Assembly: GCF_026213295.1 (NCBI RefSeq)
Contig: NC_079427.1
Location: 32,181,200 to 32,245,199 of the forward strand
DNA from: Gadus chalcogrammus
Lineage: Eukaryota; Chordata; Actinopteri; Gadiformes; Gadidae
Direction of reading: 5' to 3'
DNA length: 64,000 bases
Shown: positions 38,340 through 53,674 of the stretch, piece by piece
Layout of the letters: every line of letters begins with the position of its first letter
Position numbering within the stretch: position 1 is the stretch's first letter
Position numbers and translations under genes: made by a program
The notes under the pieces: model-generated
What the model was told of the DNA's origin: nothing
Database searches by the model: none
What the model saw: the letters and a program-made list of their open reading frames with translations, nothing else

Positions 38340-38343
38340 TTAA
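38340..38343. repeat. TTAA target site (left)
   Basis: TTAA immediately before the inverted terminus AGGCATACTGTAAGATT. The matching TTAA is at 51,963-51,966. Confidence 0.65.
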
Positions 38344-40142
38344 AGGCATACTGTAAGATTTCCAGTGATATGCACTTTTTAATATGTTGTTGAAATTGGT
38401 TTTTACATCCTGACATCAATAAATAACTTATGGGCAATGAAAAAGAAGCGAAACAAAAACGAATTCTGTATCGGCTATAAACCTGTTAGAATGCTTACCA
38501 ATCGGAGACATTGTACCCGAATCTAAAGAACCAATCACAAGCCTGCGCGTTCTCTCCCCTCTGTGTACGAGCCTGAGCCGGCCTGAGCGCGTTCACGGAG
38601 GGCAAAGAAAGCGTTGTTGTCATATAGTAGTTCATGACAGTGGACTAGACCTAGTGAGCCTACAACGTCAACACGATGGAAGACAAACAGAAGTTACCAC
38701 TGCCGCCGTTACTTGCCCCGGTTCATCCTTTTAAAAAGGCAAGAAAAAGAAAGATGAAAAGGCAGCAACAAAAAAAAATTTGGAGAGAGCTCGAGGAAAA
38801 ACGAGGATAAATATTGGATTCGCTTTTCAGCGATGGCGAAAGCTGAGGGAGTGGTATGGCCTGAAAAGTGACGCAATGGTTGCCGTTTTTCTCTTGGACA
38901 GGTAAGCTTTCGTCTTGTTTCCTGTTTATTTTATATTTGTGTTCAGAAGAAGTCTATTTTTGTGTTCAGGGAATAGTCTGCTCGCCCCGCTAGACTGTCT
39001 GCTTCAGTTGACTGAAGGCTCCGACTCAGCTGTTAGCTACAGAGCTACTGTTTAGCTAACACAACTCAAGACTCGCACACTGTACAGACCGTAAATGTAA
39101 TCAGCCAATATGTTTAAAAAGAACTCCATCTACAATGTTCCTTTCTAACTATATTATTTTTCTAATGTTATGTGGTCGTCAGCTTCTGAATGTGTCATTT
39201 CGTTTAGGCTTTTCACAAATGTGTTGATGCAGGGTCTGTTTTTCTTTTTTTAATTATTTTTATTTTATAGTTTTGACAAGGCTAATTCCTCGACACCATT
39301 GAAACACGGATCAATGAGACCACCTCCTCCTCCTCCGCCTTTGTCAAGCATTCACACCGAGTCGGTCTTTGACCGGTGAGTAAAGGCTACAATGCTACAT
39401 TAGTGTTTTCTATGATGGGCAATACATAGGGTTATACAATGCGTCATAAATGATATAGGCACAAAATATATGCGCAGACCTTGGGTCAGTTAGTGTTTAC
39501 TCTGTGTGTATGGGGGAAAAGAGAAGCTTCTTATATACCGCTCAGGAAAAAATTATGCGACCAGTCTGGATTTTTCTGAATGATCTCTACATTACTTATT
39601 GAAAATGCTCTAAATGACAATATTTTTATCGTGAATTTGGAAGAAATGTTGTCAGTAGTTTATAGTAATAGTATAAAACCAAAATGTTCATTCTACTCAA
39701 ACAAAAATAGAACAAGAGACACTGGACATGTGGAGTGGTCTCTTCATTTTTTCCAGAGCTGTGTAGTGTATGAATTTCAGTGTACAAACTCAGACATTGT
39801 AATGCATTGTGATACTTTACAGCTTTTAACTCAATCTCCCCTCCCTCCCCATTTACTCTCTCTTCACTTATTCTTTGTATTCCAGTCCAAAAGTCTATGA
39901 TATGTCAATTATACAGTTCAATGTACCATTGTACCACTAACTAAATAAAAATACAGATTGAAGATACTTGCCAAGCCTTAAACTTATATTTCAACAAATG
40001 TATCTCTCTGACGAGACAGCTCTTGAAGAATTGGATGCAAGGTATGATACATGTACTAATAAAAAAAAATCTTATTTCTTGTATTATATCTCCAAAAATG
40101 ATTTAGAAGTCAAATCTTGTCCCTGCACCTCTGTGTCATGTT

Positions 40143-41313
40143 CAATAGGCTCTGTGCACAACTCTAGAAGCGAACTTCCGGTGTCGCCGGGTGTCGGCAT
40201 ACTAGTTTCCGGTCTACTTCCCGTATCAGTTACCACGGCAACTATAAATAGTAAAAAGATGGAAAACCCAACCAAACAACGGAAATTTAATGTTAGAAGA
40301 CTTCACAAGCTTCAACGGAATGAAGGCGGATCAAACCAACACTGCTGTGTACCGTTGTGCTCAGCTTCCAGCCGGTAACACGGGCTGGTGTGTGGGAGGC
40401 TGGGAGCGAAGAGAGAGACCGGCGAGTCCCGTGCCTTGCTCCGACCCCGAAGAGCCTGAGCTACCCGTTCCGATGGTCTTAGACCATGAGTACAGTGCTA
40501 CTAGTACAGTGTGTGTTGACCGTGAGCACTACAGTGCTATACAAAAAGAGACATTTGTGGAGTTTGAGGCAATGTGAAGCTGGTGTGTTTGTGTCTGTGT
40601 GCGGCTCGTGTGCTTGCACTGTGTTGGGGCCGTGGTGGGCGCTCTCGGCTGGAGCTTTCTGCGTGTTGTGGTGGCTGACGAGGAAAGTGCGCTTGTGTGT
40701 ACATTTGTGCTGTTTTTTTAATTATACATGTTTGTATTGATTATTTGATTAAACATATGACCTCAGCTAAATCCCCCCACGGACACTGTTATAAAAGAAA
40801 CAGGCGTATAACGGTTTGTTTATAACGGTTGGTTTATCGCTAGCTTTAACATACACTCAAGCTGTGAGGCTTCTCTGATTTCTTCATGGACCTGTGGCAC
40901 AATGCTCTGATAATCACCTCCGATGTTCCCTTATCTTTGCTAGACACTAAAAAAATGGACACACGTTGGTACAGTTAGTACTACAACGGACAGTTAAGTG
41001 TTTTAAATACAGAAAAAAAATGTTGTCGCTAAAAAATGTTCACTAAAAAGCCGGTAGTCTGTCACCTACCCTCAAAGTTACGCAAATAACTCGAAATATA
41101 GAGCTTAAATCCTTTTTCCCGCTTGCTTGTAGGGGCAAGGGAACTAGCACCAACAATGCGGTTAACAACGTTAACATTTATTGTCGGTAGGTCTTGGAGA
41201 CATCTAGAAAAGCCAGACATGTTCACGCTATGGACTGGGTCAGTAAGTAGACCGGAAACTAGAATGCCGACACCGTCAGTTGACTTCCGGGTTCTAGTGC
41301 ACAGAGCCTATTG
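40143..41313. mobile_element. THAP-domain transposon fragment with about 75-bp inverted termini
   Basis: Begins CAATAGGCTCTGTGCAC, with the exact inverse at the right end. Inverted similarity goes on through TAGAA, ACTTCCGG, GTGTCGGCAT and TTTCCGGTCTACTT. No clean duplication was found: flanks GTCATGTT and TTGTTGTT share 5 of 8 positions. It lies in an intron of the transposase pseudogene, 37 bp before the Harbinger doublet. Confidence 0.75.
40259..40378 (+). pseudogene. THAP-like N-terminal fragment
   Basis: Begins MENPTKQRKFNVRRLHK and includes QHCCVPLCSASSR, which resembles the C-x(2-4)-C start of a THAP zinc-binding DNA-binding domain; the frame then stops. A TATAAATA motif sits just before the start. 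A second short frame at 40,474-40,577 may be a downstream exon. THAP domains occur in P- and Kolobok-type transposases. Confidence 0.4.
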
Positions 41314-41924
41314 TTGTTGTTTTCGTTTCTATTTATTTAGTATGTCATCCCTGAGCCCTGTACCACAAAGCTCGCTTAGAGGGTTAGCGAGGTATGTTGA
41401 GCTCCAAGCCTGGGTTAGTTGTACCACGAAAGTCGATCTCTTTTAGCGTCGCTGTATCACCATGGTGACTTATGCTCGCAACCAAAACTGTGCCCTATAC
41501 CACGAAGCTCGCTGAACATACCCAGGCTTTCTTGGGAAAACCTGGCTCGACAGAGCCGCAACTCGCAATCAGAGTTAAATGGTACCACGAAGCTCACTTT
41601 AGATTCAATTAGTTGAACCAGGTTTTCCGCTTTTGGTTCAGTGCGCGTTCACGTGAAAGGGGCGTTTTTTGCGTCATTTTTCTCACCTTTACGATAGATC
41701 AAGCTGTCTATATGCGTATAAGTGAAAATATTCTGCATATTGTCTGTAAAATAACTATGCCAAATGCAGAATTGTTCGCCATTAATCCAAATAGAATGAT
41801 GATGATTTAAAAATGCATAAGCAACGTCCATCCTGCCTTATTCTATCATTTAGGGAATTCACTTTAAATACACCCTATGTAAGAAATGTATCGCATGTTT
41901 TCAACCGCCGAGAGGTAGCGGCTG

Positions 41925-41977
41925 TAGCGTAGTGGATTAGTATAAGACCCGAACGCCAGCGACCGGGGTTCAAATTC
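41925..41977 (+). other. tRNA-like unit with A and B boxes inside the Harbinger element
   Basis: TAGCGTAGTGGATTAG matches an A box and GGTTCAAATTC a B box, about 42 bp apart. A converging unit on the minus strand has B box GGTTCGACTCC at 42,154-42,164. Both are duplicated in the outer copy. These look like SINE-type or tRNA-derived sequences rather than functional tRNA genes. Confidence 0.4.
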
Positions 41978-42153
41978 GCCGGTCTATCATCATGTATTTT
42001 ACCCCCATAGATGTGGTGCCAGCACGGCCTTTAAAATATGGGTTCAAGTTCGAAATAAGCACAAAAATATAATTCCATAAGCTTTAGTGAATAAGCATTC
42101 CATATGCATGATAATTGGGACTTTTTAAGCTTCACATAAATACGCGTCACTTG

Positions 42154-42210
42154 GGAGTCGAACCCCCCGCGCAGATATTCAAGACTGACGCGCTACCTCC
42201 ACTCTAGCAC
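42154..42210 (-). other. Second tRNA-like unit, convergent with the first
   Basis: A perfect consensus B box (GGTTCGACTCC) lies downstream, on the minus strand, of an imperfect A box (TGCTAGAGTGG, 9 of 11). Confidence 0.4.
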
Positions 42211-45200
42211 TCTGTCACGGAGACACAATGCGCAACAGTAAGCATTGTCTACATAAGGTCCAAAAGGACGATCAAATAACGAACACCCTCTTATGAGAAT
42301 CTGTATCTCTCATGAAGAACCCCAATTTCGTTGTTTGCACAATGACAATAAAGTCTGAAATCTGAATATCGTCAGACAATGCCAGGGAATCGGTTCTGTC
42401 CCGTAAAACCCTCTGTCTCCGGAGAGACGCCTGTACGAGAAGTGCGCAGAGGTCCACGGGAACACCCAGAAATGGTGACGCCATTGTCAGAGGAGGGGTT
42501 AGGAAGCTGCGCACGCCGATTTAAGTAGCCGATCTCCGGCTAGACTAAGCCGAAAAACTGCTCCCGACCAGGTTTGGTTGCGAGCATAAGTCACCATGGT
42601 GATACAGCGACGCTAAAAGAGATCGACTTTCGTGGTACAACTAACCCAGGCTTGGAGCTCAGCATACCTCGCTAACCCTCTAAGCGAGCTTCGTGGTACA
42701 GGGCCCTGGTCGGGAGCAGTTTTTCGGCTTAGTCTAGCCGGAGATCGGCTACTTAAATCGGCGTGCGCAGCTTCCTAGCCCCTCCTCTGACAATGGCGTC
42801 ACAATTTATGGGTGTTCCCGTGGACCTCGGCGCACTTCTCGTACAGGCGTCCCTCCGGAGACAGAGGGTTTTACGGGACAGAACCGATCCCTTGGCATTG
42901 TCTGACGATATTCAGATTTCAGACTTTATTTTCATTATGCAAACAACAAAATTGGGGTTCTTCATGAGAGATACAGATTCTCATCAGAGGGTGTTCGTTA
43001 TTTGATCGTCCTTTTGGACCTTATGTAGACAATGCTTACTGTTGCGCATTGAGTCTCCGTGACAGAGTGCTAGAGTGGAGGTAGCGCGTCAGTCTTGAAT
43101 TTCTGGGGGGTTCGACTCCCAAGTGACGCGAATTTATGTGAAGCTTAAAAAGTCCCAATTCTCAGGCATATGGAATACTTATTCACTAAAACGTATGGAA
43201 TTATATTTTTGTGCTTATTTCGAACTTGAACCCATATTTTCAAGGCCGTGCTGGCACCACATCTATGGGGGTAAAATGCATGATGATAGACCGGCGTATT
43301 TGAACCCCGGTCGCTGGCGTTCGGGTCTTATACATATCCACTACGCTACAGCCGCTACCTCTCAGCGGTTGAAAACATGCAATACATTTCTTACATAGGG
43401 TGTATTTAAAGTGAATTCCCTAAATGATAGAATAAGGCAGGATGGACGTTGCTTATGCATTTTTAAATCATCATCATTCTATTTGGATTAATGGCGAACA
43501 ATTCTGCATTTGGCATAGTTATTCTATAGACAATATGCAGAATCTTTTCACTTATACGCATATAGACTGCTTGATCTATCGTAAAGGTGAGAAAAATGAC
43601 GCAAAAACGCCCCTTTCACGTGAACGCGCACTGAACCTAAAGCGGAAAACCTGGTTCAACTAATTGAATCTAAAGTGAGCTTCGTGGTACCATTTAACTC
43701 TGATTGCGAGTTGCGGCTCTGTCGAGCCAGGTTTTCCTAAGAAAGCCTGGGTATGTTCAGCGAGCTTCGTGGTATAGGGCTCTGGACCTGACCGCTGATG
43801 TTGATGCTGATGCGTATAACGACATTCAAAATGCTACGTACGTTGCTGCAGATTTTTATTAATTTTTTACTTTTGAGTTTTAGGAAAAAACATTTTGATT
43901 ATTTTAATTATTATCCATGACTTTATTCTTTTTTCCCCAGTATTGACTGGGAGGATGACATTTGGTTTCCTGATAAGGACACAGAGTCTGTGTCATCATT
44001 CGAAGAAGATGACACCAGGGAAGTCGATTCAGATGATGACAGTGACGATGCAAATTATAGGCCTTGTATTTGTGTGAGGTAGGTTCCGTAACTTTTGGCT
44101 ATACCTACAGTCAAAATATTGTGTTTTGATTGTGATTTCACACTGCTATTTGTATTACAATAGGACTGGCGGTGCTCTCAAGAGTCAGATATGCTTAGAC
44201 GCACTTCCAACAGTCAGCATGGAGGACACTGTTCATGACGATCAAGACAACACCTCAGATCCAAGTGCCTCGGACATGACTACATTTCCAGAGTCAATAA
44301 AAGTCATTGTTGTGGATGACATAATAGGCCAATATGCATCCATTGCATATCATGAAAGTCTGAAGCAGCTTGCCCATTATCTCCTGCTCCCTATTAACAT
44401 GTGTCCTGCTAAGGACCCACAAACAAAGGTAGAGTGCCGGGCACCTGGACCTTTTGAATGCACTGTCAAGTCCAGGGGAACAGCTGCTGTTGTTGAGTCT
44501 TTATTTGGTGTCTACTTTTTCACTTGCATTACTTATTTTTCATGTGTGTTATCAAAAATTGTGTATAATGTTATATGATTTTTCTCTCCTCTTCTTTTTC
44601 TCAGATGTGTCCTTACGGCCACACTGTGTGGAAATGGGCATCCCAGCCAACATTAAAATACGGAATGCTGGTTGGAGATTTCATGTTGGCCACCAATATC
44701 CTCTTGTCAGGCAACAACTTCGCCAAAATATCTCTGCTTTTCAAGTTCATGAGAATGGGGATGGTGGACACTTCATCCTTCTTCAGGATTCAGGACTCGT
44801 ACTGTGTGGACACTGTGAAGGAGTTCTGGAGTGAGCAGAGAGCCTCAATCATCAGTCAGCTTCAGTCAAAAGGGCCTGTTGTGGCACTGGGTGAGTTTGA
44901 CACCAGACAAACTATACAACTTAAAGTTCAATTCTTTGTTTCCAGAATATTGCATTAGTATAGCAGATGCATGATGACCCAAAACAGTACAACAGAAAAC
45001 TAAGTAAAGTGCACACAGAAAGCAGTATGATGAGGTCTTAAATTACATTTAACAAAATGTGTATACAATGTAAGTATATTTTTAACTGTGTTACTCTATT
45101 GATTTTGAACAGATGCCAGGCTACTTGTTTGTTTTTATCATCTGTGTGAAATGCAGTATTAACCCTTTTAGCTGTCTTTTCAAAAAATATAATTTCTCTT

Positions 45201-45699
45201 TAAAGGCGATGGGCGCATGGATAGCCCAGGATTCTGTGCACAGTATTGCACGTATTCTGTCATGGAAAACGAATCCAAACAGATCATCTGCATGGTTAAC
45301 ATTGACAAACGTGTGATCATGGAGAAGGAGGGCTTCATGCAAGCGTTTGACACACTCCGCCAAGACCTCAGCATAGCTGAAATCTGCACAGATGCTCACT
45401 CAAATATCCGCCCTCTTTAGTAGGTGTATTTTTGTTAGGGGGTGTAAAGAGAAAATGATAACCTATGATACTGTATTAAAGCAAAGAGTTTTATTTAATA
45501 ACAAGAGTTTCTCCGGAGGATCACTTTCTGCTGCTCATGGAAGGCAGACAGTCAAGAGACGAGTGATAGTTTACTGTAAGGAGCATCACATATTGATGTC
45601 ACATTTGCAGCACAGGGGTTAGATACATACATTTGATTTACAATAGTTTGCATACAGGAAGTTTACAGGGTGGCTGAATGAATCACCTGGGGACTGTCT

Positions 45700-48505
45700 G
45701 GCCAGACAATAAGGGGTACTTATTGCCTCCACTTACTTGGAGGCAGCCCGCAGAACTGGACGCGGTGGTGGCCTAGCTGTCATCCACAAACAGGACCTGG
45801 AGTTGTCCCCCATGGTGCTGCCTACAACTTCCTCCTTTGAATGTCTTGCATTCACATGCAAGCCCCCCCATCCCATGACTGTTCTACTCATATACAGGCC
45901 CCCTAAACCCAACTCTGCTTTCATCCCGGAAATGTCTGATCTCCTCACAACACTCTGTACTACCTCTGCCAATACCATCATTCTGGGTGATTTAAATATT
46001 CATGTTGACACCCCCTCATGCCAGCCCGCTGCTGATTTTCTTCAGCTGCTAGACTCCCTCAACCTACAACAACATGTTGATGCCCCCACACACTCCAGAG
46101 GACACACAATTGACCTGGTCATTTCAAACTCCGCCCCCATCAGCAACCTACAGGTCTATGATCTTGGCGTCTCGGATCACAGAGTTGTGTCAATGGAGCT
46201 CCCTTTTCCTTCCTCCCACACCAAACCAAAGCGGCAGATCCACTTCAGGAATGTGAAAAATATCAACATGGATGCCCTGGCCCTGGACCTTCAACATCTC
46301 TCCTCTGGCTCAACTGACTCCCTCTCTGTTGCTGACTCAGTGGACTTATACAACCAGTCCCTGAGCAGTCTCCTGGATCTCCACGCCCCCTTAACATCGA
46401 GGTCAGTCTCCTTCTCGCGCTCCGCACCCTGGTACACCAGTGAACTACGTACAATGAAGGCTGCTGGGCGTGTCCTTGAGCGGCGACTCAAGGCCTCTGG
46501 TCTGACCGTTCACAAACAGGCATACAGGGAACACAGGAGGGCATATGCTGAAGCCCTGAATAATGCACGGTCCAGGTTCTATTCCGCAATAATCAACAAT
46601 AGCCCTGGTAACTCCAAACAGCTCTTTTCAACTGTCCATCACCTTCTCAAACCCCCTTTACCATCCCAATCTGATGTCACCACGGAGAGGTGCAACATGC
46701 ACATCAACTTTTTTAAACAAAAAGTGAATAACATCCGCTCACAGCTCTCCACCACTACTGCCCTGCCCCTTCCAACTGCTGACCCACCGATTGACTCTGT
46801 CCAGACCCTCTGCTCCTTCTCCAGCATCACAAAGGAAGAGGTGGAGGACGTCATCAGGAAAATGAAGCCATCCACCTGTGCACTAGACCCCTTCCCTACA
46901 GCTCTGCTGAAGGCCAACATCTCTGCTGTCTCTCCACTCATCACCAATATCATTAACCACTCCCTCCTGGCCGGCCATATCCCATCTGCATTAAAAACTG
47001 CTGTCATCAGACCAACATTAAAAAAACCTACCCTTGATCCAGAAGTCCTCTCCAACTACAGGCCCATCTCAAATCTCCCATTTCTGTCAAAAGTTCTGGA
47101 AAAAACTGTTGCAGCACAACTCCAGGATCACCTCATACAACATCAATTGTTTGAAAAATTCCAGTCTGGTTTCCGCTATGGCCACAGTACAGAAACAGCC
47201 TTGGTCAGGGTCACAAATGACCTCCTGATGGCAGCAGACACCGGCTCCCCATCTCTCCTCATCCTCCTGGACTTAACAGCTGCTTTTGATACGGTCAACC
47301 ACAATATTCTCCTTCACCGCCTGCAATACCATTGGACTATCAGGAAATGTAAAGAACTGGTTCACCTCGTACCTCACTGACAGAACTGAGCACGTTGCCC
47401 TGGGCAAAGCAAAATCACACACCAACAACGTCACCTGCGGTGTCCCCCAGGGCTCGGTGTTGGGCCCCACACTGTTCTCACTGTACATGCTCCCCCTGGG
47501 TAGTGTCATTAGCAGGCATGGCTTGTCTTACCACTGCTATGCTGATGATACACAGCTCTACATCAGGACAACCCCCACTTCTTCTGCCCCTCTGCCAACA
47601 TCCACACTGACCACCTGCCTGGAGGAGATAGAGGCGTGGATGAAGCTCAACTTCCTACAACTTAACAGCCATAAAACGGAAGCCATCCTTATTGGCACGC
47701 CACATCAGCTCCGCTCCCCCACCATCACCAATATCACCTTCTCTGGCAAAAACATCCCCCTTTCCACATCCGTCACCAACCTCGGTGTTAAAATGGACCC
47801 ACAACTTAATTTTGACACCCACATCAAACACCTCTGTAAGACAGCTTTATACCACCTCAGGAACATTGCCAAACTCCGCCAATCACTCACCCTGGCTGAT
47901 GCAGAGAAGCTCGTCCATGCCTTTGTCTCCTTTAGGTTGGACTACTGCAATGCACTCCTCATTGGGATCCCTGGCAAGAGCATCCAGAGGCTCCAATACA
48001 TTCAAAACAGTGCTGCCAGGGTCCTGATGAGGGTGCGCAAGCATGACCACATCACCCCCATCCTGAAATCACTGCACTGGCTCCCTGTCTCACTCAGAAT
48101 TGAGTACAAGGTCTCCCTCCTCACCCACCAGTGCCTTCACAGACTTGCCCCCCTCTACCTTCAGGAACTCCTCACCCCCCCGACAAACTCACGTACACTC
48201 CGTTCAGGATCCACTCACACCCTCCAAACCCGACATACGAAGCTGTGCACCATGGGTGATCGGGCCTTTTCTGCTGCTGCCCCTAGACTATGGAACGCCC
48301 TCCCTGACCACCTGAGGGCTCCACAGACTACAGCTCTTTTTAAACGGAACCTCAAAACCCATCTCTTTAAAAGATCATTTAGCTAAACTTTCTTTGAGGT
48401 TCCCCCTTTTTTTGATAGTTTTTTCGTATTTTTTTCTCTGAAGCACTTTGAGATTCTTGAATATAAAGTGCATTATAAATAAAATGTATTATTATTATTA
48501 CTTAA
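45700..48505 (+). mobile_element. L2/Maui-type LINE, 5'-truncated
   Basis: The ORF2 region is followed by an L2-style 3' end (AGCACTTTGAGATTC, then AAGTGCATTATAAATAA and an ATT repeat). Inserted in an intron of the transposase pseudogene between exons ending 45,423 and starting 48,700. The 5' boundary is not visible, and I cannot classify 45,424-45,700. Confidence 0.85.
45737..48386 (+). pseudogene. LINE ORF2: endonuclease and reverse transcriptase, one frameshift
   Basis: The first frame (45,737-47,380) holds an apurinic-type endonuclease C-terminal half ([28 protein letters not shown]) and the start of reverse transcriptase ([49 protein letters not shown]). The second frame (47,286-48,386) continues with [17 protein letters not shown], the catalytic YADD motif (CYADDTQLY) and the L2-type C-terminus ending [12 protein letters not shown]. 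The frames switch near 47,325, so one small indel breaks the protein. The N-terminal endonuclease portion is missing, consistent with 5' truncation. Confidence 0.9.
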
Positions 48506-50082
48506 AGCATGATCTGTGTCTTAGTTTGCTTGTTCAAACGTATAGTGAAGCTGTGAGATTATTTATCATTACAGGGGTAATTGTACAAATCTTTATTTAT
48601 GCATGCACTCTCAGACCACATTCATCACTTATAATTTTCTATGTTTGGAAATTGATTTTCACATTGCCTATATATTCTATGACTTCTTTTGTCCTACAGA
48701 CAAAGGGATATATAAAGACAGTGGGGTGAAAGACACCCTGGACATGTGGCATGGGTCAAAAAGCTTGGGAAAGAAAATTCATGCAGTAAGTTTATGATTC
48801 CTCTTTTGATAGATAAAGCTTATTTTTAATCGGCTAGACTCCACTGTATTTTCATACACCAAGTTGACATCCTACCATTATTTTGTTTTGTGTGTGAAGG
48901 CCGGACAGCAAAGACAGTGTACCATTCTACAGACCTGGAACAGGGACATCTGTAACCACTTTTGGTACTGTTGCAAGACTTCAGATAATTATGAAGACTT
49001 CTTTGTAAGTGTTATGGTATAATATTTATCTGGGTCTGACCCTTTTGTTGAATAGTTTTTGCGCAAGCTTGGTTTGATTTCTTACTGACGTCATTACTCA
49101 TTGATACATTTTTCCTTAGGATATGTGGGCTGGGGTCCTTCACCACGTCACCACCAAAGTAATTTTCCTTTTTTTATTCAAACAATATAAAAACAAAAGG
49201 ACTCTGCATTTTTAATTACTCCTGGGGAAAAAATATAAATAAAAACGATGTACATTATATAAAAAACGTTCACACAGATACAAATAAACTGAAGCCTTTA
49301 TATTGTCCGTGTGGATCTGGAAAGCGGTCTCTTATCTTCCACACACAGCAACTGGGTAGGACCACTCTGTTCCCTGCTCCCAGTGCCCCATATTGCCACA
49401 CAACAAACTGTCGGTATGCAGCATAGCGAAATTGTTTCTTGCTTTCCCCTGGGTCTGGAAGGTCACCCAAAGCCCGCACATCGTTCCAGATTCTGATTGC
49501 AAGGCGCAGGTGCCCCTCTTGCAGAATGTATGCCTCGATGTGGGGCAGCATTGCTATACATGAGTGAGGTTGTTGCCCACAGCACTTGCGCTCCACGTCC
49601 GTCGGCATTTCCCTGCAGTTGTGGCAGATGCACCAGGTGGGTTTATCTCTCACTTGAGGGCCTGATGGAGGAGGATCTGTGGATGACATGGTGAGCAGGT
49701 CGAACATGAGGCTGGGGTCGCGTGTCAGGCAGTGCTGGAGCAAATGATGCGACATTTGCAGATCCAGACTTTGAATTCTTGCCTGTAAAGTAATACATGA
49801 TGAAGATTAGTTATTGAATACAGTTTTTTATTTTCCTCCAATAGGTAGGCTAGTGTGTGTTCATGGTACATGGCATCTCAGTATACAAAGTTGCTGGTAA
49901 GGTTTATGTCTCAGATACAGTACCTGCTCATCTGCTATCCTTAGAGCTTGCAGGTTCTCCACTCGCAGTACATCATCCTGCCCCAGGTTTACTGCAGCCC
50001 CGCGTCTCCTGCTTCTTCCCGCTCGTCCAGTGCCTCTTGCTCCCCGTCTTCCACCTCTACTTCCTCTGCCCCTAATGGCCTG

Positions 50083-51402
50083 GGGTCTCATTTATAACCG
50101 TTGCGTACGCACAAAACGGGGCTGAAAGTTGCGTACGTGACTTTTCACGCCAAGGTTGTGATCTATAAAAAACCAACTTGACGGGAAAATGTGCGCAGCC
50201 CTAAGCAAACTCTGACCCATGCGTACGCATGATTTGGAGGAAAAGGAGAACTGGCGACACAGACGGTGTGGTGGTGAACTGAAGTCAGACCGAAGAATTG
50301 CAGAGTGAGAAGAACGATTATGTTTTATCATCGCCCTTCATCAATTTAATTTCAACCCGTATCATGTGTTAATTTAAGTCCACTGCGTTATTTCTCAGTT
50401 ATAACTCCAGAAATATCTCCTTAGAATAGAAATAAAAAGAAATTCTCTATATTTAATCCCGTCACTCCATACTGTCCACTGACGGCGCGACTGCATGGAA
50501 TAAAGCATCTGTCCAACATGTGTCAATAACATAATATTTTTATGTGACACTGTAAACACATGATCAAATGTCAATTAAATCCCAAGTGTGAAAAACCAAG
50601 CCACACTCATCACAATCGTTGTCCGTTATGCTTTTCATGACAAATCAGGCATTAAAAAGGGGTTATGTTGAAGAACATTTTACGTGGGTAATTACAAACG
50701 GATTATCCAAGGCGTTCTCGTCAGTCTTATTACCGTAACCCTATAAATACAGAGGTGAGCGCCGTGGTAATGCTGCACCATATGGCACTTCTGGCGGACC
50801 ATGCAGGATTCGGAGGGAGAGGGTATTTAGGGACCATAACGATTTATTGGTAGGCTACATAAAAATATGTAACTCTATGTCAGACCACTTCTTTTTTAAT
50901 TCTGGGACTGTGCGCTCCGTGCTACTGACAGAGTTCACTGCTGCAGCAACATGTTGCCACTCACTCTGCTTTTTGTTGTTGGCGATTCCAATCCCGTGAC
51001 CGCCGAACAAAACTACCTTTCGGGCCTCCATCTCACCCACAAGTGTCTCCACTTCAACCTCCGTGAAATATCGCTTTTTTGATTTTCTCAGTACTTCTGC
51101 CATTGTTTCCAACAAGACATAATACCGGCATCTGAGTCTGTTTTATATGCAGATCGCATTCATGAGGTCATTTGCATTGACCATTTATGGTTAAAAAGGG
51201 GCGTGTAGAGGGCGGAACGTGAAGCTGATTCAGCTGCGCACAATTATAGTCAGTATGTGATTTATAAAGCAAAGATTGCGTACAGGTGTGCGTACGCAGT
51301 GTTTTATAAATCAGAATATTTTTTGGCGCACGCAAAACTTGGCTTCTGGGCGTACGCACATTTTTAGTAACGATCCCACGCACAGTATTATAAATGAGAC
51401 CC
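50083..51402 (-). mobile_element. Harbinger element with Myb-like frame, CTG duplication
   Basis: Ends GGGTCTCATTTATAA and inverse; CTG flanks both sides (50,080-50,082 and 51,403-51,405). The termini contain several GCGTACGCA-type motifs. Inserted in exon 2 of the ballast-domain gene. Confidence 0.85.
50855..51115 (-). pseudogene. Myb/SANT-like DNA-binding protein fragment of Harbinger
   Basis: An 86-aa frame with KKRYFTEVEVETLVGEMEARK, then SEWQHVAAAVNSV and VPELKKKWSDIE. This matches the Myb-like second protein of PIF/Harbinger elements, which works with the nuclease in DNA binding and nuclear import. Only the N-terminal domain is present, and no nuclease is visible within this element. 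Confidence 0.65.
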
Positions 51403-51962
51403 CTGCTCTCTTGCAGACAGTCGACCTCGGGCCCGTCCCCTCTGAACCGACGACGTGTTTGGCTCGGGACTGTAGTCTGTGTCAGAGCCCAAAAAACTCT
51501 CATCTTGTGAACTCTGACAAGCAAAACAATGAATGATAAATAAAGTGTAATATACTACACAAAATATGTGTGTAAGTAAACTGTGAACTTTTTCTTTACT
51601 GTTACCAGTCAATCTGTGCTTATGAGCTAGCCTGACGGCTGTGAGTACTACTACTAACAGTAACAGTAGGCCTCATCATGTTTGTTTTAAACATTTAGCA
51701 TTATAATATTAGGTGTGTTCTTACCGGTGAATGAGACATCCTAGTTTGTAGAGAAACGCAGCCGACCGTTAGCTCAGCTCTCGCTCAATGAGGCAGCGGC
51801 AGCGTAGCTACCTGGTTGCCAAGTAGCAGCAGCGCTCGTGCACGGCTCTGTGTCGAGGGGTGGGGGCAGGGAGTCCTGAAGGGTGGGGGAGGAGTTAAAC
51901 GGAACTCCGAAGAGAAGCTAATTTCGAATCATGCTAGCTCTCTCAAATCGTACAGTATAGCT

Positions 51963-51966
51963 TTAA
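51963..51966. repeat. TTAA target site (right)
   Basis: TTAA directly after the right terminus; pairs with 38,340-38,343. Confidence 0.65.
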
Positions 51967-52286: not shown

Positions 52287-53674
52287 TTAATCCTCATCTC
52301 CGTCTTCTTCCTGCGTACTAAAACCACCAAAGTCCTCATCTTCAGTGTCGGAAACGAACAGGCTCAGGGTGGCTTCGTCAGCCGCTCTCCTCTCTCCTTC
52401 GTTGTCGCTGTCAAAACCAACGAACTCCTCTTCGTCACTGTCGGAATCGAACAGCCTCTGAAGGGCCTCAGCTGTGGCGGCGTCCTCCTCTTCATCACGC
52501 AGCAGTCCAGCCTTTCGTAACCCGTTAATGATCGTGGATGTTTTGACACTCCTCCACGCCATCAGGACCCTCTCGCAAACTTGAGCGAAAGTTGCTTTTC
52601 GCATGCGACCAGTTTTGGTGAATGATTTATCGCCGCTAGTCATCCACGCCTCCCACTGACCGCGTAGTGCCACTTTGAACGCACGATTGACACTGATGTT
52701 GAGTGGCTGCAGATCCTTCGTTGTGCCCCCAGGAATCACAGCTGGAATCGAGTTTGTGCTCTTGATGGCTGCTTTCACATTATCCGTTATATGGGCCCTC
52801 ATGCTGTCCAAAACGAGCAAAGCTTTTTTTTGGCAAAAGAATACTCCAGGGCGCTTGACGTAGCACTCATTCAGCCACTCCTTCATCACGCTTTCCATCA
52901 TCCACCCTTTCTTGTTGACTTTAAAGGAGATGCCATTCGGGATCTTTTCTTTTGGCATTGTAATCCGCTTAAAAAAAAACATTGGCGGAAGCTTTAATCC
53001 AGATGCTGTGCAGCCAAGTACACAAGTGAAATTCGTTCTCTCGTGGCCAGTGGTTCTCAACGTGATGGACGATTCACCTTTCTTGTTAACAGTCCTAGTG
53101 AGAGGCAGGTCAAACGTCAAAGGCACTTCATCCATATTTATGATCTGGTCCGGTCCGATGGAATATTCCTCTATCTTTCTTTGTGTGAATTTGCAGAAGT
53201 TTGTTACTTTTTCCTTGTAGTCGGGAGGGAGTTGCTGACACACAGTCGTCCGCGCCCTGATGGATAGTCCCTTTCGTCTCATAAATCTGAAACACCAGGA
53301 TGGTCCACCTCTGAAATTTTCAATTTTCATTTCAGTGGCGACTGTTTTAGCTTTCAGTCGGAGGGCACGGTTGAAACACCTCTGCCGTCTGCTCTCTGTG
53401 TGTTCACCCAATCTTCAAGAAAGTCTTCAAGTTCGGGCTATCTGCTTTTATTACCTCTGAAAGCTTTTTTTGACTTCTTGCATTGAGACAGTTCTTCCCG
53501 CTGGCGTTTCCAACGTCTCAGCATTGACTCATTGATGCCAAGGCCACGTGCAGCAGCTCTATTTCCTTCTTTTACAGCCAGATTGACTTCCTTTAACTTA
53601 AAAGCTGCATCATATGCATTTCTACGTTTGTTTTCCATAATGAGGGTTTGTGCATGAAAACTTCCGTTGCACAA
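52287..53674 (-). pseudogene. Pogo/Tigger-like transposase
   Basis: The N-terminal part (53,674-53,438) encodes a helix-turn-helix region (NAYDAAFKLKEVNLAVKEG, INESMLRRWKRQ) and stops at a TAG where the family normally has Trp. The main frame (53,411-52,287, 374 aa) begins out of frame, then gives a CENP-B-type helix-turn-helix (GGPSWCFRFMRRKGLSIRART) and the DDE_1 core: IINMDEVPLTFDLP, ALLVLDSMRAHIT and KDLQPLNISVNRAFK. The third acidic catalytic residue, normally Asp in LQPLD, is Asn here (codon at 52,698-52,700). An acidic C-terminal tail follows (DSDSDEEEF). Nonsense, frameshift and active-site change make it inactive. Confidence 0.85.

Follow-up and report, generated by a model that had tools for sequence, protein, structure and literature searches.

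P2X7 ballast gene between transposon ends

The Alaska pollock genome (Gadus chalcogrammus) raises the question of how the C-terminal ballast domain of the P2X7 receptor comes to lie beside a transposase gene, without any channel, and whether it moves with the transposon. The locus is part of a stretch of 64,000 nucleotides of contig NC_079427.1 (positions 32,181,200 to 32,245,199), here called the window, and all element positions are given in window coordinates. A 13.6-kb element flanked by TTAA (38340-51966) contains two convergent multi-exon genes, as a preliminary description made from the letters of this DNA had proposed: a DDE transposase gene on the plus strand and, on the minus strand, a gene ending in the P2X7 C-terminal domain (PF20478, E value of 1.2e-29, in the open reading frame [ORF] 49270-49806), with an RG-rich arm in the place of the channel. 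We conclude that the locus is very probably a DNA transposon of a fish, belonging to the Kolobok superfamily and probably of Kol0 type, and that this copy of it is dead. The ballast gene corresponds to KolX, the protein of Kol0 Kolobok transposons for which a ballast fold has been described (Kojima and Bao 2022, PMC9587614).

The left end reads TTAA+AGGCATACTGTAAGATTT (38340-38361, plus strand) and the right end TTAA+AGCTATACTGTACGATTT (51945-51966, minus strand). The target sites occupy 38340-38343 and 51963-51966, and the terminal inverted repeats 38344-38361 (plus) and 51945-51962 (minus). Both repeats begin with 5'-AG and are identical at 15 of the 18 bases that follow TTAA, with the match fading after approximately 22 bp, TTAA included. 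Taken alone, matching ends are only suggestive evidence of an element, and in a set of 60 random surrogates of the window, one contained a TTAA-bounded pair with 15 of 18 matches. The analytic chance that so good a pair lies outside both start codons, at a distance of no more than 1 kb, is about 3e-5. We accept these sequences as real element ends because they are placed just outside both start codons and recur in the genome, which upholds the preliminary claim of matching inverted ends with TTAA on both sides.

Recurrence across the genome

The whole assembly (630 Mb, 168 contigs) was searched for both genes and for the ends. The search with the KolX exon ORF gave at least 151 exon matches (150 of 293 candidates scored), and the transposase search, with the 686-residue relative P0066, gave at least 92 (65 of 1,151 candidates scored). 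When the 39 highest-scoring KolX places were compared with 44 of the 92 transposase rows, a convergent transposase was found within 12 kb at 28 places, including the window and its segmental duplicate, and a transposase in any other orientation at none, the expectation under uniform placement being approximately 0.2% per place.

The window end pattern occurs 116 times in the genome, against 11 for the reversed control. Among the places listed there are at least seven close pairs of window-type ends, approximately 0.7 or 1.6 kb apart, which look like short nonautonomous derivatives, and five of the six that were fetched have TTAA-bounded ends matching at 12 to 14 of 18 positions. The ends thus recur as pairs, the failure of which the preliminary description had named as evidence against its proposal. 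A second subfamily, first seen at C7, has ends AGCTAGGGTGGG that match at 16 of 18 positions, and its end pattern gave 317 matches against 0 for the control. Paired TTAA ends of this subfamily enclose KolX at 10 loci, some of which may be assembly duplicates; nine of them (7.4 to 16.5 kb) also contain the transposase, and the tenth (C9, 3.4 kb) has KolX with no transposase match. On the KolX side, the only one compared, homology between C7 and C18 and between C7 and C102 ends at the TTAA, and the three flanks differ. Copies in the genome are up to 98% alike.

These results bear on the possibility that the ballast gene is a nanor-like host gene and is found beside or inside this one transposon copy by accident. 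In its favor, Rump et al. 2020 (PMC7016195) treated ballast-only genes as normal genes and described their ancestral linkage to two markers, and one host use of the domain, P2X7 itself, is present in this genome. Against it stand the exclusively convergent linkage, the 10 loci with paired TTAA ends around the ballast gene, and the same two-gene layout in a mussel (see below), which together leave this explanation extremely improbable. The prediction that the ballast domain travels with a transposon family is borne out by the linkage, the paired-end loci, the differing flanks, and the mussel, and the check proposed for it, several copies with both genes between TTAA ends, came out positive at the nine loci named above.

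Some further observations concern these ballast genes. Another kind of KolX, with the ballast domain split by an intron, is found at C12 20290500-20294800 (L062) and C15 25413800-25415400 (L063) and is probably the commoner kind; the C12 gene faces, in convergent orientation, a frame of 463 residues for a divergent transposase. Rump et al. 2020 (PMC7016195) report two markers that accompany ballast genes from sponge to urchin, as well as a tick and mite ballast protein in which they name a "TAHP" (THAP?) domain; the markers could be the Kolobok transposase itself, and the protein could come from a Kolobok element.

Transposase family and superfamily placement

We found 218 proteins related to the transposase; among the 120 listed, nearly all are from fish, with some from lancelets, acorn worms, and molluscs. 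Their signature consists of D337, D404, DMWH or DIWH, and E549, with D337 invariant and D404 and E549 nearly invariant in 27 aligned rows. The model of P0066 (pLDDT of 75.8) is an RNase-H DDE transposase, and its fold matches the ISCth4 transposase (E value of 1e-5), retroviral integrase cores, and the P-element transposase (E value of 1.3e-3), with low whole-chain TM-scores.

Several features of Kolobok are present. TTAA is duplicated at both ends of the element and accompanies the end pattern on both sides of the 10 sister loci. The terminal rule 5'-RR...YY-3' (5'-AG/CT-3') given for Kolobok (PMC9587614, PMC6004289) holds in the window element and in the second subfamily, both AG...CT. The relatives have a DDE triad with C/DxxH between the second D and the E, in an RNase-H fold, and the Kol0 feature, a KolX with the cytoplasmic ballast fold, is present as well. 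A THAP domain had no match in the window ORFs scanned (exon 1 not included) or in eight relatives (E value of ≤0.01), and one of these eight, P0151, is named THAP-type in UniRef; an N-terminal THAP domain is usual in Kolobok transposases, not universal.

Several points weigh against this assignment. The label is based on TTAA, the RR..YY ends, the DxxH signature, and KolX, not on a comparison with Kolobok reference sequences. Pfam gave only a weak Mutator-like match, under the cutoff, for one relative, and another relative, P0069, carries a PiggyBac-derived name in UniRef. In addition, no transposase match was found close to 11 of the 39 KolX places: P2X7 itself, C9 (internally deleted, with both ends), and nine others. 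The name of P0069, together with the TTAA target, which piggyBac shares, and the mention by Kojima and Bao of KolX-like proteins in a few piggyBac families (PMC9587614), could suggest that the element is a piggyBac with such a protein as its ballast gene. We assign this reading the lowest probability of all those considered, close to nil, as the 5'-AG/CT-3' ends follow the Kolobok rule, the D, D, DxxH, E signature and the fold speak against piggyBac, no piggyBac family appears among the Pfam matches of the window ORFs (E value of ≤0.1) or of the eight relatives (E value of ≤0.01), and the ballast protein of the element keeps the cysteines, most of which are missing from the piggyBac KolX-like proteins (PMC9587614).

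Within Kolobok, the element shares with Kol0 (Kolobok-1_XT type; Kapitonov and Jurka 2007, as cited in PMC9587614) the TTAA target, the 5'-RR..YY-3' ends, the DDE transposase with DxxH, and the cysteine-bearing KolX ballast, and differs in its multi-exon transposase, the lack of a THAP match in our scans, and the internal deletion of the window copy. In the account of these groups in PMC9587614, genes on opposite strands are described for KolobokP and not for Kol0: in KolobokP, too, an accessory gene follows downstream of the transposase and is encoded by the opposite strand. That gene is a His-Me finger nuclease, where the second gene here is KolX; KolobokP also has long terminal direct repeats (approximately 450 or 660 bp), and its authors did not find it in vertebrates (PMC9587614). 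No such direct repeats were seen at the ends compared, which are inverted, although no dedicated search for direct repeats was made. The Xenopus XKol elements (PMC6004289, Table 5) likewise have TTAA and 5'-AG ends, with lengths of 6.8 to 13.9 kb and, in one subfamily, AGTGATACTGACAGTA at one end; their transposases mostly keep THAP, and P2X is absent from the main text of that paper.

The layout in other animals

Among genome contigs, the only relative confirmed is L001 (NZ_CAHJWD020000427.1), a contig in an assembly of a Bathymodiolus thiotrophic symbiont. It has KolX on one strand and, convergent to it on the other, a transposase with the conserved C-terminal motif RSTAELENFQN, and this Kolobok-like transposon has introns. 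The contig seems to be host mussel DNA inside a bacterial record, because its KolX groups with Mytilus KolX in the tree (support of 99/98). A goby has KolX and transposase proteins with consecutive locus tags on equally long contigs, and KolX-like proteins are also found in molluscs, echinoderms, and a brachiopod. As far as the sequences can tell, the convergent layout is common to mollusc and fish, through descent or horizontal transfer, the second of which is a point against the main reading. Separately, a Nothobranchius protein named Gypsy integrase-like (P0005) combines an integrase-type domain (PF17921) with a KolX ballast and may be a gene-model fusion.

Origin of the P2X7 ballast domain

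The link between KolX and P2X7 and the resulting origin of P2X7 are not new here; both were published in 2022 by Kojima and Bao, who derive P2X7 from a P2X4-like gene that fused with KolX and who regard Nanor as a likely domesticated KolX (PMC9587614). It was the only publication found on KolX or on the P2X7 ballast together with transposons, and a search for Kolobok with P2X additionally returned one review. The suggestion in the preliminary description that a transposon could explain the P2X7 domain is therefore supported by the linkage, although not as a new idea. What is possibly new is a comparison of exon phase between P2X7 and KolX; we did not find this or the mussel-fish convergence in PMC9587614.

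The P2X7 gene of this genome (L050) lies near C6:25.0988-25.1000 Mb, and its joined C-terminal exons align with residues 294-592 of mouse P2X7 (E value of 3e-58). The end of exon 12 and the start of exon 13 are in phase 0, and exon 13 encodes 154 residues with the invariant W at position 43. The last exon of KolX also follows a phase-0 intron; it encodes 170 residues in the window copy, with the W at position 50, and 173 residues in the C7 copy, with the W at position 54. By eye, the similarity starts at the same point after intron-like sequence in 12 of 92 database KolX proteins, and the last residue of these 12 intron-like stretches is Q in ten cases and K in two, which is what a CAG or AAG acceptor read in frame would give. 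P2X7 exon 13 and KolX are thus alike in that a phase-0 intron precedes the C-terminal exon and this exon encodes the cysteine ballast domain, whereas P2X7 has a channel and KolX the RG-rich arm instead. Ballast-only proteins such as Nanor (Rump et al. 2020, PMC7016195) are likewise short and end in the ballast domain, by their description; they are presented there as host genes, whereas Nanor is regarded as a likely domesticated KolX in PMC9587614.

The match in phase and position fits the capture of a whole terminal exon, without proving it: an old KolX terminal exon would have joined a P2X4-like gene and become exon 13 of P2X7 (after Kojima and Bao 2022, PMC9587614). Two points weigh against leaning on it heavily. 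The exon match is only moderate evidence because phase 0 is common and because exon 13, with 170 residues in human, has a highly variable 5' part (Rump et al. 2020, PMC7016195). Second, in the unrooted KolX tree, the P2X7 pair sits on a long branch (1.57) and is nested in no KolX clade, which does not show the direction of transfer. The same tree is what could be said for the reverse course, in which KolX would be a passenger captured from P2X7 and not the source of its domain. We consider this very unlikely: KolX-like proteins occur in the invertebrate groups listed above and beside the transposase in the mussel, while Rump et al. 2020 (PMC7016195) report typical P2X7 from bony vertebrates and not from agnathans or chondrichthyans, and found no ballast joined to a P2X in animals other than vertebrates.

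Role of KolX

Between subfamilies, pS in the last exon is 0.69 to 0.80 (saturated) and pN is 0.20 to 0.41. The computable selection ratios are 0.09 to 0.30 between subfamilies and 0.15 to 0.70 for near-identical copies; these are rough estimates from 10 of 30 fetched KolX loci, chosen without stops and hence biased to intact copies. On these sequence comparisons, KolX is under strong purifying selection between subfamilies. The preliminary description had left the domain as either cargo or a cofactor; the cargo half does not stand well, as a resident second gene fits the purifying selection better. We infer that KolX is needed for transposition because it is retained and under selection, and we think it rather probable, with some reserve, that it acts as a nucleic-acid-binding partner in the transposition complex.

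In a working element, the transposase would cut at the AG ends and insert at TTAA, and KolX would be an accessory transposition protein expressed from its own promoter at the opposite end. Its RG-rich arm may bind nucleic acid, and the zinc-stabilized ballast may act as a binding site, whether for the transposase complex, for a guanine nucleotide, or for a partner from the host. Put together, the tentative scenario, to which we give slightly less than an even chance, is that P2X7 arose through the capture, by a P2X4-like gene, of a whole Kol0 terminal exon, including the splice acceptor and the phase-0 intron, that KolX is a needed RG-armed partner of the transposase, kept convergent to it since before the mollusc-vertebrate split, and that the P2X7 ballast keeps a property of KolX, the binding of guanine nucleotide or of a partner.

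Structure and decay of the window copy

(i) KolX gene. The spliced reading of the window KolX comprises 264 residues on the minus strand, from exon 1 with the start codon (51725-51739) through exon 2 (51403-51513 and 49924-50082, the latter encoding the RG-rich arm) to the last exon with its phase-0 acceptor and the ballast domain (49270-49782). It is 98% identical over 120 columns to P0001, the protein of a 2.4-kb contig; over approximately 45% of the query, it shares 92% identity with a Boreogadus saida protein and 90% with a Gadus morhua protein. Identity to solved P2X7 is 29 to 32%. The residues R574 and K583 of the GDP site of rat P2X7 correspond to V and D in the window KolX, and its C terminus is SLFVSV, where most aligned relatives have IPxRV and the C7 copy has LTWRL.

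(ii) Transposase gene. Ten exons were placed on the plus strand (38676 to 49158), eight of them with tblastn matches to fish relatives and exons 2 and 3 from splice signals and by eye, with no tblastn match. They are exon 1 (38676-38901, with an internal frame break), exon 2 (39271-39375), the tentative exon 3 (39957-40041), exon 4 (43941-44078), exon 5 (44164-44509, with a weak donor site), exon 6 (44605-44890), exon 7 (45206-45419, with the first catalytic D in GDGRMDSPG and the second in CTDAH), exon 8 (48700-48785, with the DMWH motif), exon 9 (48900-49004), and exon 10 (49120-49158), where similarity stops near HHVT. Given the splice sites placed here, the frame is also broken in exon 3 and at the junction of exons 7 and 8, and exon 7 has six residues fewer than in relatives. 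There is no similarity past approximately residue 491 of P0066, so the C-terminal 195 residues or so are absent; both D residues and DMWH are kept, and the third acid (the equivalent of E549) is lost. Judged by its coding sequence, the window transposase cannot be active because it lacks E549 and its frame is broken. The earlier identification of a DDE-type transposase holds as to family and not as to intactness, the gene being truncated and frame-broken.

(iii) Deletion scar. From the last transposase codon (49158) to the KolX stop (from 49270), there are 111 bp, in agreement with the tail-to-tail spacing of roughly 110 bp first reported. This spacing is probably not native, as the stop-to-stop distance is approximately 0.7 kb in the fuller C7 copy and approximately 1.8 kb in the mussel. 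The most likely reading of the gap, and of the SLFVSV end of KolX, is that one internal deletion removed the 3' ends of both genes, with the presumed junction at 49159-49290. The same deletion is present in a second copy of 12.4 kb approximately 270 kb away (G000:C16 32489000-32502700; L042, L043), which has the same flanks and nested repeats and is 99.6% identical to the window copy outside the fold-back repeat. Because the flanks are the same, this copy is a segmental duplicate and not a second insertion; the flanks of the window insertion were seen again only there. In the duplicate, the exon 7 match is 18 bp longer than in the window.

(iv) Nested insertions. The decay of the window copy thus comprises the loss of both 3' gene ends, the frame breaks, and several insertions. 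KolX exon 2 is split by a Harbinger-type element (50083-51402), so labeled from its CTG target duplication, one copy of which is 51403-51405, and its Myb/SANT frame (50855-51142); the Boreogadus proteins P0033 and P0212 continue across this point without the insertion. One transposase intron holds a repeat with its own inverted ends (approximately 40160-41310) and a fold-back repeat (41350-43785) with arms of 141 to 512 bp and 96 to 99% complementarity. Another holds a long interspersed nuclear element (LINE) with endonuclease and reverse transcriptase frames on the plus strand (approximately 45490-48500), the frames spanning 45713-48386 with a break near 47380 and an ATT-repeat tail. Directly outside the element, at 52287-53414, lies a Tc1/pogo-like transposase frame (DDE_1, with a Tc5 DNA-binding domain).

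Implications

P2X7 is under study as a drug target, and the purpose of its ballast domain is unknown; the proposal that this domain has a transposon descent, set out in short sections of PMC9587614, may be little known among P2X7 researchers. Transposon copies are a likely reason for the many fish annotations as "P2X purinoceptor 7-like," at least some of which probably denote transposon genes. With a P2X7 gene, dozens of transposon-linked KolX genes, several subfamilies, and paired ends in a single genome, the exon phase, the direction of the transfer, and the role of KolX become testable in one animal.

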